A stretch of DNA of 48,071 bases from Komagataeibacter europaeus LMG 18890 (GTDB lineage: Bacteria; Pseudomonadota; Alphaproteobacteria; Acetobacterales; Acetobacteraceae), in NCBI RefSeq assembly GCF_000285295.1, contig NZ_CADP01000019.1:1-48071 (forward strand), in the 5' to 3' direction. Numbering within the stretch: position 1 is the first letter of the stretch; each line of letters starts with the position of its first letter. Made by a program: the position numbers and the translations under genes. Positions 20,010 to 40,600 of the stretch are shown here, one piece after another. The notes beneath the pieces are model-generated. The model had not been told where the DNA came from and ran no database searches. It saw only the letters and a list, made by a program, of their open reading frames with translations.

Positions 20010-20079
20010 CCGCATGACATGCGCCCGCATGCCGGGTTTCTTTGACAGTGCGGGGATCGATCGTCTAAATCCGCCGCTG

Positions 20080-20297
20080 ATGGTTCCCCCTTGTGGGGGA
20101 GAATAGGGAAGACGGTGCGCCATACCGGCAATTCCGTCGCTGCCCCCGCAACTGTAGGTGGCTGTCTCCCGGCCCGGTCCGCGTCCTGCGGGCCGACATG
20201 CGCCACTGGTTCCCATGATCGGGACCGGGAAGGCCGCCGGGATCGAGGGTGCTGACCCCAGCACCCTCCGCCACAAGCCAGGAGACCTGCCATCATG
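20080..20297 (+). promoter_or_regulatory. cobalamin (B12) riboswitch
   Basis: Carries the conserved elements in order: GGTTCCCCC with GGGGGAGAATAGGGAA (20081-20110), GACGGTGCG, AATTCCGTCGCTGCCCCCGC and AACTGTAGG (20130-20158), GCCACTGGTTCC (20202-20213), GGGAAGGCCG, and the B12 box AAGCCAGGAGACCTGCC at 20275-20291. It should repress the downstream cobalamin genes when adenosylcobalamin is bound. The first gene begins 170 bases further on. Confidence 0.96.
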
Positions 20298-20316
20298 TCC
20301 GCCCGCAGGCGGACAT
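20295..20316 (+). promoter_or_regulatory. hairpin directly after the B12 box
   Basis: ATGTCCGCC (20295-20303) and GGCGGACAT (20308-20316) form a perfect stem with a CGCA loop. No T-run follows. It may belong to the expression platform, but the ribosome-binding site of the next gene is 140 bases away. Confidence 0.4.
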
Positions 20317-37295: not shown

Positions 37296-39545
37296 ATGTC
37301 CAAGCCTAACCTGAGCGCTGAAGTCCTTATTTCGGCACTGGAACAGGCCATAGACGCAACCGTTATTATTGATGACCAGAACCATGTCATTTTTTTCAAT
37401 AGCGCTGCGGAAAACCTGTGGGGCCTGGACAGGAAGGACGTGCTTGGCCAGAACGTGAACGTGCTGGTGCCCGCGCAGCAACGCAGCGGGCATGACGCGT
37501 TCGTGAACCGCAGCCGCGCCAGCGGCCAGGACCGGATTGTCGGCACATCGCGGGAAGTGGAATTCACCCGCAGCGATGGGGAATACATATGCGGTGAACT
37601 GTCGCTGTCGAAGGTCGTCACGCATGACAAGCGCGTCTTCTTCATGGGGGTGATGAAGAACGTCACCAATGAAAGCCAGCAGCGCAAGATCCTGATCCTG
37701 CAGAATGACGTGCTGCAGGCACTGGCCAGCGACATGATGATACAGGACGTGGCCGACCTGCTGTGCCGCCGGGTGGAAAGCTTCGTGCCCGGCACGGTGG
37801 CGGTCCTCATGCTCATCACCGCTGATGGGCAGTTGCGCGTGCTGTCCAGCCCCACCCTGCCGAAGCGGTACCGGACGTCGCTGGAAAGCCTGTACATTTC
37901 CTCTTCCGAACTGGAAAAGCTGCGGGTGGATCCCAACTACGCCACGCGGCTGGTATGGGACAGCTACCGTTCGCTTGGTATCTCGCTGGGGCTGCAGCAG
38001 TGTTTCTGCACGCCGGTCTGCACGCGTTCGGGCCAGGTCAAGGGCATTTTCGCCCTGTATGCGCGTGAGGACCAGGGCCGCAATACATGGCCGCAGCGCA
38101 TTGTTGATTCATGCATTCCCTTCTGTGCGCTGGCGTTCGAGCAGAATGCGACGCAGGAACATATTTCCCATCTTGCCAATTTTGACAGCCTGACCGGGCT
38201 GCTTAACCGTTCGTCGGTCCACAAGGTGATCGAGAGCATGATCAACAAGCAGGATGGCAACCGCCAGTTCGCCATCTTCATGCTCGATATCGACCGTTTC
38301 CGCGATATCAACGACGCGCTGGGCCATGTCTATGCCGACCAGTTCCTGGTCGAGATCGCGGCCCGTATCCGCGCCATCGCACTGGACGGGTATGTCATCA
38401 GCCGTTCCGGCGGGGATGAATTCGTGGTGGTGGTGCCCAACTGCCCCACCAAGGAAGCCACGGAGTTTGCCGAACGCCTGCTGGCCACCATCGCCAAGCC
38501 CATGCAGATCGGGCAGAACACGCTGACGATTTCCTGCTCGATCGGCATCAGCACCTATCCCGACAACGGACCGGATAGTGAGTCCCTGCTCAGCACGGCG
38601 GATGTGGCGCTGCGACAGGCCAAGGAAAACGGGCGCGGCACCTTCCGCTTCGCCAACCTGGAAAAGAACCAGGTGGCGCAGGACCGGCTGGTGCTGGGTT
38701 CCGCGCTGCGTGATTCGCTGGCAAAGGGCATGCTCAACCTGCATTACCAGCCGCAGGTGCGCACGCATACGCTCGAACTCAGCGGGGTGGAGGCCCTGTC
38801 GCGCTGGCACCATCCGACACTGGGCAACATCTATCCCTCCCGCTTCATCGCGGTGGCGGAGGAAACCGGCCAGATCGAGGCCATCGGCCGGTGGTCGCTG
38901 CTGGAAGCATGCCGCCAGATCGTAAAATGGGATCGCGACGGCATCCATGTCCCCACCGTGGCCGTGAACCTGTCGGCGGTGCATTTCCGCAACCGCGCGC
39001 TGCCCGAGCACATCGCGGCCCTGCTGAAGGACCATGACCTCAAGCCCGCGCGCCTGACGGTGGAAATCACCGAAAGCGTGATGATGGACAACAGCCGCGA
39101 TACCGAGGAAGTGCTGCAGTCCATCCGCAACCTTGGCTGTGGCCTGTCGATGGATGATTTCGGCACGGGGTATTCATCGCTGTCGCGTCTGACGCGCCTG
39201 CCGCTGACGGAAATCAAGATCGATCGCAGCTTCATCAATGAATTCGAGCATGACACCAACGCACAGGCCGTGACCATGGCGGTGATCGGCATCGGGTCGC
39301 GCCTGGGCATGACGGTGGTGACCGAAGGGGTCGAGACGGAACAGCAGTGGCGCCTGCTGGAGGAACTGAACTGCGATGTGATGCAGGGCTACCTGTTCGC
39401 CAAGCCGCTGGCCCCCGATGACCTGGAAAAATGGGTCAGGCAGCACAAGACAATCCGTGAAATCATGCCGACCACGCCTTCCGCCAAAAATGTTTCCGAC
39501 AAGAAAATATTAGCGCATTGTTTTAATTCATTAATTTTCCAATAA
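37296..39545 (+). CDS. PAS-GAF-GGDEF-EAL protein, DosP/AxPDEA1-like oxygen-sensing c-di-GMP enzyme
   Basis: 749 residues from MSKPNLSAEV (start 37296, GAGGT upstream). It aligns along its length with E. coli DosP: heme-type PAS (about 10-125; H66 in QRSGHDAF at the position of the proximal His77), GAF-like region (about 148-288), GGDEF (about 300-465; intact SGGDEF) and EAL (about 480-735; VEALSRWH, MDDFGTGYSS, KIDRSF, TEGVETEQQW). In the PAS domain the DosP distal Met95 is replaced by Thr (VGTSREVEF), while the oxygen-binding Arg97 is kept. All EAL catalytic motifs look intact, so c-di-GMP hydrolysis is likely; cyclase activity cannot be excluded. In Komagataeibacter xylinus the relative AxPDEA1 controls cellulose synthesis. 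Confidence 0.92.
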   Translation: MSKPNLSAEVLISALEQAIDATVIIDDQNHVIFFNSAAENLWGLDRKDVLGQNVNVLVPAQQRSGHDAFVNRSRASGQDRIVGTSREVEFTRSDGEYICGELSLSKVVTHDKRVFFMGVMKNVTNESQQRKILILQNDVLQALASDMMIQDVADLLCRRVESFVPGTVAVLMLITADGQLRVLSSPTLPKRYRTSLESLYISSSELEKLRVDPNYATRLVWDSYRSLGISLGLQQCFCTPVCTRSGQVKGIFALYAREDQGRNTWPQRIVDSCIPFCALAFEQNATQEHISHLANFDSLTGLLNRSSVHKVIESMINKQDGNRQFAIFMLDIDRFRDINDALGHVYADQFLVEIAARIRAIALDGYVISRSGGDEFVVVVPNCPTKEATEFAERLLATIAKPMQIGQNTLTISCSIGISTYPDNGPDSESLLSTADVALRQAKENGRGTFRFANLEKNQVAQDRLVLGSALRDSLAKGMLNLHYQPQVRTHTLELSGVEALSRWHHPTLGNIYPSRFIAVAEETGQIEAIGRWSLLEACRQIVKWDRDGIHVPTVAVNLSAVHFRNRALPEHIAALLKDHDLKPARLTVEITESVMMDNSRDTEEVLQSIRNLGCGLSMDDFGTGYSSLSRLTRLPLTEIKIDRSFINEFEHDTNAQAVTMAVIGIGSRLGMTVVTEGVETEQQWRLLEELNCDVMQGYLFAKPLAPDDLEKWVRQHKTIREIMPTTPSAKNVSDKKILAHCFNSLIFQ

Positions 39546-39593
39546 GGTTTCAGTTTTGCGCAAACGTATGGCGAACGTGATCGGAAACCATTC

Positions 39594-39622
39594 TTGTACT
39601 TTCATGCATCTTCCCCTATAAT
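39594..39622 (+). promoter_or_regulatory. sigma70-like promoter of the candidate ncRNA
   Basis: TTGTAC (39594-39599) and a perfect TATAAT (39617-39622) with 17-base spacing. Transcription would begin near 39629, exactly where the first strong stem starts. Confidence 0.6.
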
Positions 39623-39628
39623 CACCCA

Positions 39629-39929
39629 GCTGCGGCACCCATCCGGTTGGTGCAGGTCACGATGCCGCAGCGCCGCATTTCTAGAGACCCTCGGGTCGCA
39701 GTGGGTGGAAGCCCCGCACCAGTTTCAGGTTCCAGATACTGCGGCAGCGTGGATGGACATGCCGCACCCCTAATGAGGTCAGCCCGCTGCGCTTGGGAAA
39801 CATGACATTTAGGATGCGAAAGCAAGGTGCGAATATCGGGTGAGCCCGACGCCGTAGCCGGTATCAAGCCCGGCCCGCAGTAATCTGGCACAGAGCGGCA
39901 GGGCCTTCGGGTTCCTGCCGTTTCTATTT
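39629..39929 (+). ncRNA. candidate structured non-coding RNA, about 300 nt, unknown family
   Basis: Lies between a promoter-like element and a strong terminator, without a plausible protein. Possible helices, in order: GCTGCGGCA/TGCCGCAGC (39629-39637/39663-39671); GACCC/GGGTC (39686-39697); GCAGT/ACTGC (39698-39702/39738-39742); TGCGGCA/TGCCGCA (39740-39766, competing with the previous one); CCTAA+GTCA/TGAC+TTAGG (39769-39781/39803-39813); TGC-GAAA-GCA (39815-39824, GNRA loop); TCGGG/CCCGA (39836-39849); GCCGG/CCGGC (39857-39874); and the terminator. I do not recognise tmRNA, RNase P, 6S, SRP or a known riboswitch. It could be phage-borne or host-borne. Confidence 0.55.
39896..39929 (+). terminator. 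UUCG-capped intrinsic terminator
   Basis: CGGCAGG pairs with CCTGCCG; the stem continues to a C(UUCG)G tetraloop and is followed by TTTCTATTT. The T-rich tail is on the plus strand only, which sets the direction of the RNA. Confidence 0.8.
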
Positions 39930-39976
39930 CCTGCACCCTCTCCGCAAACAGAACAGCCGGTGCAGCCAGCGCCAGA

Positions 39977-40600
39977 TCACCGATGACCGCCCACGAATGG
40001 CGCGACTGGATCACGCCCGTCACACTCGCCTGCGTCCCAGGTATCAATCATCGCCTGCACCCTCCCTCGCAGTTCCTCCCGATCAGCAATCAGTCGGGCT
40101 GCCTCAGCGTGCCGGGCATCATCATTCTGCGCGAACATGGACGCCTCATAGCCAAGCTGCCGCCCCATCTCCACGTCAGGCATGGATGATAGGGGCGCAT
40201 AGGCCACCGGCAGGCTGACCATCTGCCCGCGTACCCGGCTTGCATCGGCCTGCACGCCAAATGTGGGCGCGGTCGTGATTGCCCCCACGCTGAACTGTCC
40301 GCCATGCGTGAACTGACCAGACAGTTGCAGAGTCACGTCCCCCGCAATCGTTCCCACCACTGGATCGGACCGTCCCTGACTGCATTGTGCCGCCCGGACA
40401 GCGCGGACGAACAGGGCGTCCTGATCCTCAGTCCAATCGCCCGCGTGCGATACCGATACCACTCCTGCCTGCGCCAGACTGGACTGGATGCCTGTCATGG
40501 CCTGCGGGATGGTAGTTGCGACGCGGGCCGGGTGGGCAGCGCACCCCGACAGGCCGACCATGCAGGCGAACAGGAAGGCTACGCGGTCGGACCGGTTCAT
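39977..40600 (-). CDS. prophage lipoprotein of unknown function
   Basis: 207 residues with a lipoprotein signal (FLFACMVGLSGCAAH; lipobox LSGC, Cys20). The rest is soluble, with two acidic/aromatic stretches and a C-terminal helix rich in charged residues (ARLIADREELRGRVQAMID). It overlaps the upstream gene by ATGA and is the last prophage gene before the candidate RNA. Function unknown. Confidence 0.75.
   Translation of the reverse strand: MNRSDRVAFLFACMVGLSGCAAHPARVATTIPQAMTGIQSSLAQAGVVSVSHAGDWTEDQDALFVRAVRAAQCSQGRSDPVVGTIAGDVTLQLSGQFTHGGQFSVGAITTAPTFGVQADASRVRGQMVSLPVAYAPLSSMPDVEMGRQLGYEASMFAQNDDARHAEAARLIADREELRGRVQAMIDTWDAGECDGRDPVAPFVGGHR

Follow-up and report, generated by a model that had tools for sequence, protein, structure and literature searches.

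A prophage-edge RNA in Komagataeibacter europaeus and its tRNA-like core, a new phage RNA family with a variable insert in place of the anticodon arm

Just inside a prophage edge in Komagataeibacter europaeus LMG 18890, within the 48,071-nt stretch of contig NZ_CADP01000019.1 analysed here (the window), lies a candidate RNA gene of about 300 nt that matches no Rfam family. This locus raises the questions of whether the gene belongs to the host or to the phage, which part of it is conserved and what that part could be doing. Our best reading, to which we assign a probability of roughly 0.55, is that it is a prophage gene whose core belongs to a new phage RNA family acting as a natural tRNA scaffold.

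A composite RNA at the prophage edge

The RNA is a composite of a 5' hairpin module, leader hairpins, a tRNA-like core with a variable insert, and a terminator (Table 1). An earlier note, made from the letters alone, had proposed a structured RNA of no known family, equipped with a promoter and a terminator of its own. Our tests agree with that description; the composite build and the tRNA-like core had escaped the note. The TTGTAC-17-TATAAT promoter is present in the sequence where it had been placed, and the stem at the very start (9-10 bp from 39629), the GNRA-capped stem (TGC-GAAA-GCA), the CCTAA..GTCA/TGAC..TTAGG helix with its internal loop and the terminator, in which TTTCTATTT comes after a C(UUCG)G hairpin, can each be found both in the sequence and in the computed fold. 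In line with the judgement that no protein reading is convincing, the three longest ORFs over the RNA, one of 141 aa on the antisense strand and two of 59 and 52 aa in the sense direction, had no Pfam match even at E 1; a shorter antisense ORF has 40 aa. Rfam 15 gave the window RNA no match at the gathering threshold, again as the note had supposed, and a permissive search of 39480-40010 returned two sub-threshold hits only (Xoo2, E 0.13; mir-1538, E 9.4). Elsewhere in the window, at 20064-20308 (+), a cobalamin riboswitch (Rfam RF00174) scores 100 bits.

Table 1. Parts of the RNA and the adjoining prophage edge, in window coordinates.
Feature	Position	Strand	Basis
Prophage edge	39488-39507	not applicable	host-gene match of insertion-free relatives stops here
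Promoter: -35 TTGTAC, 17 nt, -10 TATAAT	39594-39599 (-35), 39617-39622 (-10)	+	sequence
5' hairpin module GCTGCGGCA...TGCCGCAGC, stem 9-10 bp	39629-39671	+	9-bp stem in 8 sequences
Two small leader hairpins, GACC-CTCG-GGTC and GTGGG-TGGAAGC-CCCGC	39686-39717	+	sequence, alignment
Acceptor-stem extension, paired with 39883-39888 over a one-base bulge	39732-39737	+	fold, alignment A5
Acceptor-like stem, 5' strand ACTGCGG, partner 39875-39881	39738-39744	+	R1 match, covariation
D-arm-like hairpin GCGTG-GATGGA-CATGC; loop GG at tRNA positions 18-19 in our own numbering comparison	39747-39762	+	
Variable insert (putative payload) replacing the anticodon arm	39763-39856	+	
T-arm-like hairpin GCCGG-TATCAAGC-CCGGC, contiguous with the acceptor 3' strand	39857-39874	+	
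Acceptor-like stem, 3' strand CCGCAGT	39875-39881	+	covariation, outer-pair test
Intrinsic terminator, UUCG-capped hairpin and T-rich tail	39893-39929	+	sequence, fold

An unconstrained minimum-energy fold of the window RNA reproduces exactly the core helices. Its folding free energy is unremarkable, with z -1.21 and an equally good fold in 8 of 100 dinucleotide shuffles, so the stems are unconvincing taken by themselves and it is the homologues that decide. The note had named covarying stems in homologues as the support to look for; these were found for the core, and the support for structure outside 39738-39881 is thinner. Across the whole predicted fold in five close relatives, three pairs changed on both sides, a count equalled by 28 of 500 shuffles, and pair types were not in excess (413 of 500 shuffles reach the observed value). 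The 9-bp 5' stem has two pairs with both sides changed in eight sequences, with one broken cell, and in the terminator hairpin every cell is paired in five relatives. The widespread, conserved part of the RNA is the tRNA-like core, 39738-39881. The window member is an unusual one, with an acceptor stem predicted to be lengthened by six pairs, an extension present in close relatives and atypical of the family, and with its core lying within a longer transcript that would carry the 5' hairpin and the intrinsic terminator.

The modules around the core also occur apart from it. The 5' hairpin, which begins with the same GCTGCGG as the tRNA-like core and makes up a small family of its own, was seen with a similar promoter at loci L005, L006, L009, L017, L022 and L024, and among these the Komagataeibacter loci L005, L006 and L009 have no match to the covariance model of the core (R1). 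It lies near a tRNA in L005 and, by eye, also in L006, L018 and L024. The second leader hairpin and the CCAGTTTCA link recur in other structured-looking RNAs (L010, L011, L017, L027). Three Komagataeibacter loci (L010, L011, L025) hold large structured-looking RNAs with the same terminator hairpin, different middles and, in part, a common GCGGGTGRAAGCCCCGC leader and CCAGTTTCA link; L010 and L011 have no R1 match, and Rfam gives nothing there except a tRNA in L010. The parts of these three RNAs look like swappable modules. A motif of a neighbouring RNA type, CGTAGCGAAAAGCGGCA, had no match in IMG/VR.

A tRNA-type frame in phage genomes

Within the genus, BLAST returned near-identical copies in genomes G007 and G002, a diverged copy at L017 (71%) and the phages phiKX1 and phiKX2, and two loci from other genera of the Acetobacteraceae (L012, L015) had little beyond a TGCGGC...GGATGGAC piece and GCCGGTATCAAGCCCGG in common with the window, around unrelated sequence. 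A 20-nt portion of the 3' piece, used to scan IMG/VR, hit 93 places in 91 stretches, and a 5'-pattern scan gave 117 stretches; most of the stretches from these seed scans have the core layout in common. When a loose rule was applied, no T-arm was seen in a few of the new 5'-pattern loci, in part because they run out of contig at that point. The descriptor search yielded 113 distinct inserts in 110 sequences, nearly all of them phage records (its 130 hits count the window twice, as itself and as L001).

Covariance model R1, in which three dummy pairs in the insert allow length variation, scores the window core at 76.6 bits, this core being itself among the 59 training sequences. It matches a single place in the window's own genome, the named phages Caulobacter DMCA, Pseudanabaena Pan3, Iodobacter PhiPLPE, Alcaligenes QDWS595, Acidovorax AP1, phiKX1 and phiKX2, and plasmid p1-AD2 of Roseomonas mucosa. 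The recorded hosts of these named records we take to be alpha- and betaproteobacteria, and that of Pan3 a cyanobacterium. R1 matched 53 of 54 records, 47 of them once and six twice, with the second match weak in two or three. Among genomes it matched 21 of 299 in the family, 4 of 385 in the class and 4 of 398 in the phylum; these tallies each include the window's genome, count matches whatever their prophage setting and, since scans of more than 40 genomes used stricter filters, lose weak matches. So few matches mean that R1 does not pick up tRNAs in general. Two candidates were not retained: Myxococcus phage Mx1 is unsupported as a member (17.5 bits, E 0.3, no match in a second test), and MW202426 (L204) was dropped when no core was seen on reading.

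The core is a phage gene, present mostly in one copy per record. The earlier note had left two origins open, a phage regulatory RNA and a host RNA near an integration site; the first is upheld by phiKX1 and phiKX2, by the IMG/VR contigs and by the position inside the prophage edge, and the second is ruled out because the RNA occurs in phage genomes and just inside that edge. Some phages carry two cores whose inserts differ, arranged in tandem or on opposing strands (L133 5274-5374 and 5476-5577; L104 1162-1368 and 1557-1677; L079, both strands).

The layout of the family consists of a 7-bp acceptor-like stem, a 2-nt linker (CG in 105 of 113, CA in seven, CT in one), a 5-bp D-arm with the loop GAWGGA, an insert that ends in A, just ahead of the T-arm, in 112 of 113, and a 5-bp T-arm with an 8-nt loop. 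The T-arm runs into the acceptor 3' strand without a gap in 113 of 113 descriptor hits, for which pairing and layout were selected. Its loop is mostly UAUCAAGC (98 of 130, a count partly dictated by the search pattern), and in our own comparison with tRNA numbering its U..C.A falls on positions 54, 56 and 58, with one extra base.

Several of these regularities follow from how the sequences were gathered. Pairing was a selection rule for alignment A1 and for the descriptor counts, so that A1 is necessarily 100% paired, and the search patterns dictated the T-loop letters in the 3'-seed set and the D-arm letters in the 5'-seed set. Fairer tests are the upstream test on the 3' seed, the covariation in alignment A4 and the outer-pair test. 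First, among the 93 places located with nothing but the 3' seed, 71 are preceded by a complementary acceptor strand and a D-arm in register (mean 0.1, maximum 1 in shuffled upstream DNA), and 70 of these 71 have GG in the D-loop without its being required; 22 places fail the strict rule, two of them for want of upstream sequence. Second, in A4 (31 sequences: the window, 29 genome matches collected with R1, and PhiPLPE) 97.3% of cells are paired and 42 cells have both sides changed, compared with 6.9 when shuffled and 2-11 when slid; in A1 (59 sequences) 12 of 17 pairs changed on both sides, with 110 such cells against 18.7 shuffled. Finally, the outer acceptor pairs, which were not required, form in 110 of 115 (pair 1) and 113 of 115 (pair 2), against 74.3 and 56.4 in shuffled controls. 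Beyond 7 bp there is a weak excess at the next two positions (68 and 62; shuffled 42.2 and 48.3) and then background, and this sharp drop points to an essentially 7-bp stem, as in tRNA. Taken as comparative evidence, the alignments show a tRNA-type frame maintained by compensatory changes. The core fold is near certain, and the fold together with the phage origin is very highly probable.

Although the frame is of tRNA type, the core is not called as a tRNA. It has the 7-bp acceptor stem contiguous with a 5-bp T-stem and lacks the anticodon arm and the 7-nt T-loop, and neither Rfam RF00005 (window and 18 loci) nor ARAGORN (window and 20 loci) calls a tRNA at the core, while neighbouring tRNAs are recovered. 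A known RNA family is likewise rejected, as there was no Rfam match at the cores of the window and of 18 further core-bearing loci (12, plus six of 11 in another set whose other five hold no core). The tmRNA and Y RNA models had no match in the Rfam scans of the window and the scanned loci, nor had the GOLLD and ROOL models in the Rfam scans; group II intron, retron and riboswitch found no support in those scans. Near the core of Alcaligenes phage QDWS595 (L202 71-447), ARAGORN predicts a candidate tmRNA with the tag ANDNVYAAAA. Literature searches of the open-licence PMC library brought up no description of the core RNA, and work behind paywalls could have been missed; in the accessible parts of two papers, 'noncoding' occurs 0 times (PMC8566455, which reports phiKX1) and 'tRNA-like' 0 times (PMC2864571). 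Domains resembling tRNA are known as such, and what is new is the RNA family and its layout among natural phage RNAs.

Genomic setting and expression signals

Insertion-free relatives follow the 3' end of a c-di-GMP gene at this site to about 39506, and the phage side of the edge is common to a copy at another site in G007. From this edge the window RNA reads inward, facing an ORF on the minus strand (39977-40600) with a match to phage family PHROG 28078. The left edge of the prophage was seen at different host sites in G000 and G007 (window 39488-39507 and L002) with few common bases by eye, which would suit a transposable or short-core phage. In DMCA, the core stands between a transposase gene and an integrase. 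Across IMG/VR, copies are biased to contig ends, 14 of 44 falling in the outermost 5% at either end (KS p 4e-5), in a sample of 44 out of 45 records chosen for length or isolate origin, with one 4.6-kb fragment dropped and positions entered manually.

Transfer RNAs are found near some cores. They lie 109-200 nt upstream on the same strand in L012, L211, L214, L218, L226, L228 and L027, and 69 nt upstream in L219; at other sites they are on the opposite strand. The upstream tRNAs may be integration sites. A tRNA is present within 250 nt at 14 of 143 sites (random mean 5.3, maximum 12) and within 600 nt at 18 of 143 (random mean 9.4, maximum 18), a modest excess. At three of 143 sites (0.06 by random placement) a tRNA starts no more than 15 nt downstream on the same strand, and in these tandem cases it follows the core by 8-10 nt: L179 (Asn), L206 (Met; an ARAGORN call unconfirmed by Rfam) and L223 (Arg).

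Neighbouring genes bear on whether the core is a cis element. As such it would direct the processing or 3'-end formation of adjacent phage transcripts, those of a lysis module for instance, or be an RNA of prophage replication. Endolysin, in keeping with a link to lysis, is the commonest named family on the downstream side (PHROG 7, 9 of 115 proteins). However, the neighbours are otherwise diverse, with a few terminases, portals and integrases among others, about a third of cores have a -10-like box of their own, and no fixed partner was found among the loci examined, which makes this alternative improbable. No conserved partner or target gene emerged from 113 loci on either strand, where the largest cluster of shared neighbours comprises 12 loci, and the neighbours across these 113 loci lack the constant place before one gene class that would characterize a cis-regulatory RNA or riboswitch. 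Rsr/Ro60 is absent among the 25 commonest Pfam families of each neighbour set. The proteins scanned came from 115 of 169 downstream-side and 112 of 180 upstream-side ORFs, predicted by a simple greedy caller that is noisy in GC-rich DNA. The core is very probably a trans-acting RNA gene.

A TAnnnT box starts between -15 and -9 in 36 of 113 cores (shuffled mean 9.9, maximum 18), and the remaining 77 have no -10-like box in the expected place. Since the box mostly starts at -12, transcription would begin at or beside acceptor base 1 in box-bearing cores. In the window, the -10 box begins 12 nt ahead of base 1 of the longer RNA, the same as the commonest position before family cores, and a promoter resembling that of the window also precedes the 5' hairpin in L002, L005 and L017. 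The L179 core is preceded by a TAGAAT box, so core and tRNA are probably one transcript there. DNA downstream of the cores is C-rich and G-poor and could suit Rho. As a rule CCA is not encoded, with C at the second base past the acceptor in 18%. Release of the window member by an RNase P-type cut is doubtful because its acceptor is extended by six pairs and buried in a longer transcript.

The insert and the possible role of the frame

The place of the anticodon arm is taken by an insert that is mostly unrelated between phages. The 113 inserts measure 43-176 nt (median 83), and 92 of 130 have no relative among the others at E 0.01, with clusters of six, three and three and 13 pairs besides. L017 illustrates the exchange: its leader hairpin, D-arm and the segment from T-arm through terminator are nearly or fully identical to those of the window, and its insert is unrelated. 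The comparison is limited by a 5' hairpin of another subtype and by a differing acceptor 5' strand that leaves two pairs open, so that this copy may be decaying. The window insert contains a stem CGCACC/GGTGCG, a GAAA-capped hairpin and a hairpin CGGGTGAGCCCG; two of the six pairs of its first stem changed on both sides among the window and the three relatives sharing its insert. C(GAAA)G occurs in 16 of 113 inserts against 3.7 expected, and canonical T-arms (5 bp, UUCRANY) in six of 130 against 0.01, so some inserts hold a second tRNA-like piece. Insert folding is slightly above that of control DNA (mean z -0.30 vs -0.05), and structure was set aside as a strong signal of the inserts because it is weak.

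The main rival to a scaffold is that the tRNA-mimicking frame is itself the effector, a decoy or inhibitor occupying a host tRNA-binding factor (RNase P, RNase Z, the CCA enzyme, a T-loop modifying enzyme, SmpB/ribosome rescue or a defence tRNase), with the insert as tolerated filler or a block to translation. Conservation does fall on the frame, loop bases included, and the inserts are mostly unrelated, as this would predict. On the other hand, inserts of 43-176 nt would be needless for a pure decoy, and GAAA-capped hairpins recur in them, as do nested T-arms in a few. With the anticodon arm missing, anticodon nucleases make improbable targets. We regard the decoy as unlikely overall.

One of the closest known likenesses is man-made. 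In the engineered tRNA scaffold, according to the part of PMC3753655 available, a recombinant RNA is inserted in place of the anticodon stem-loop and the acceptor stem, D-arm and T-arm are kept, as they are in the phage RNA. The scaffold was built from a true tRNA, whereas the phage RNA is natural and, unlike it, has an 8-nt T-loop, an extra D-stem pair and an A preceding the T-stem, and it generally lacks an encoded CCA. The tmRNA resembles the phage RNA in its tRNA-like ends and in a large domain that replaces the anticodon arm. It has no D-stem, however, and contains pseudoknots and a tag reading frame. In YrlA, a Ro stem is formed by the ends of the RNA. YrlA is a non-coding RNA with a tRNA-like domain encoded in an rsr-yrlBA-rtcBA operon with the Ro60 orthologue Rsr (PMC7790460, in the portion available); that domain is common to YrlA and the phage RNA, but the Rsr-linked operon belongs to YrlA, and the phage RNA has no Y RNA match in Rfam.

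Two phage systems are also relevant. According to the accessible sections of PMC12286853, GOLLD and ROOL are phage and prophage RNAs of unknown function that often lie near tRNA islands, and GOLLD has a conserved and a less conserved part, with a linker region that sometimes holds tRNAs. The phage or prophage origin, the occasional tRNA neighbours, and a variable region able to hold tRNA-like pieces (canonical T-arms in 6 of 130 inserts) are shared by our family (PMC12286853), and by analogy the core could assemble into homo-oligomers or cages in which the insert serves as linker or cargo. GOLLD and ROOL, however, are larger and differ in structure, while the phage core is simple, has only 50 nt and matches neither model, so that assembly is quite improbable. 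In tRNA-dependent lysogeny, the function of phage-encoded tRNAs is tied to integration at tRNA genes (PMC10865867, in the part available); that system needs a complete tRNA, whereas the phage RNA has no anticodon arm and the window prophage lies in a protein gene.

We therefore propose, from the layout shared with the engineered scaffold (PMC3753655, as far as available), that the frame of the phage RNA recruits host tRNA maturation and lends stability, and that the insert is the active part. The D-loop and T-loop would dock as in the tRNA elbow, and stand-alone members could be trimmed by host tRNA-maturation enzymes and protected by them. The insert would point outward as an anticodon arm does and serve as the effector in trans, through base pairing or by binding protein; its target may differ from phage to phage and belong to the host, a rival phage or a defence system. 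The chances of tRNA-type processing are about even, and the tandem cores 8-10 nt from a downstream tRNA (3 of 143 sites) bear on it only indirectly; an effector role for the insert is as probable as its opposite. Beyond this, and more tentatively, phages may have independently evolved a tRNA scaffold in which a hypervariable, exchangeable payload is carried in a shell matured and protected by host enzymes. Such an RNA, made from the prophage edge, would act against targets that change fast, such as rival phages, host defences or host regulators, and related prophages would swap the payload and keep the shell.

In summary, the RNA at the edge of this K. europaeus prophage adds an RNA family, with 113 distinct inserts and no match in the scans of Rfam release 15. 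If the scaffold reading is true, phages hide variable RNA cargo inside a tRNA-shaped shell, an arrangement that to our knowledge is otherwise known only from engineering. It would then point to a new class of phage effectors to look for and be a source of natural parts for stable RNA expression.
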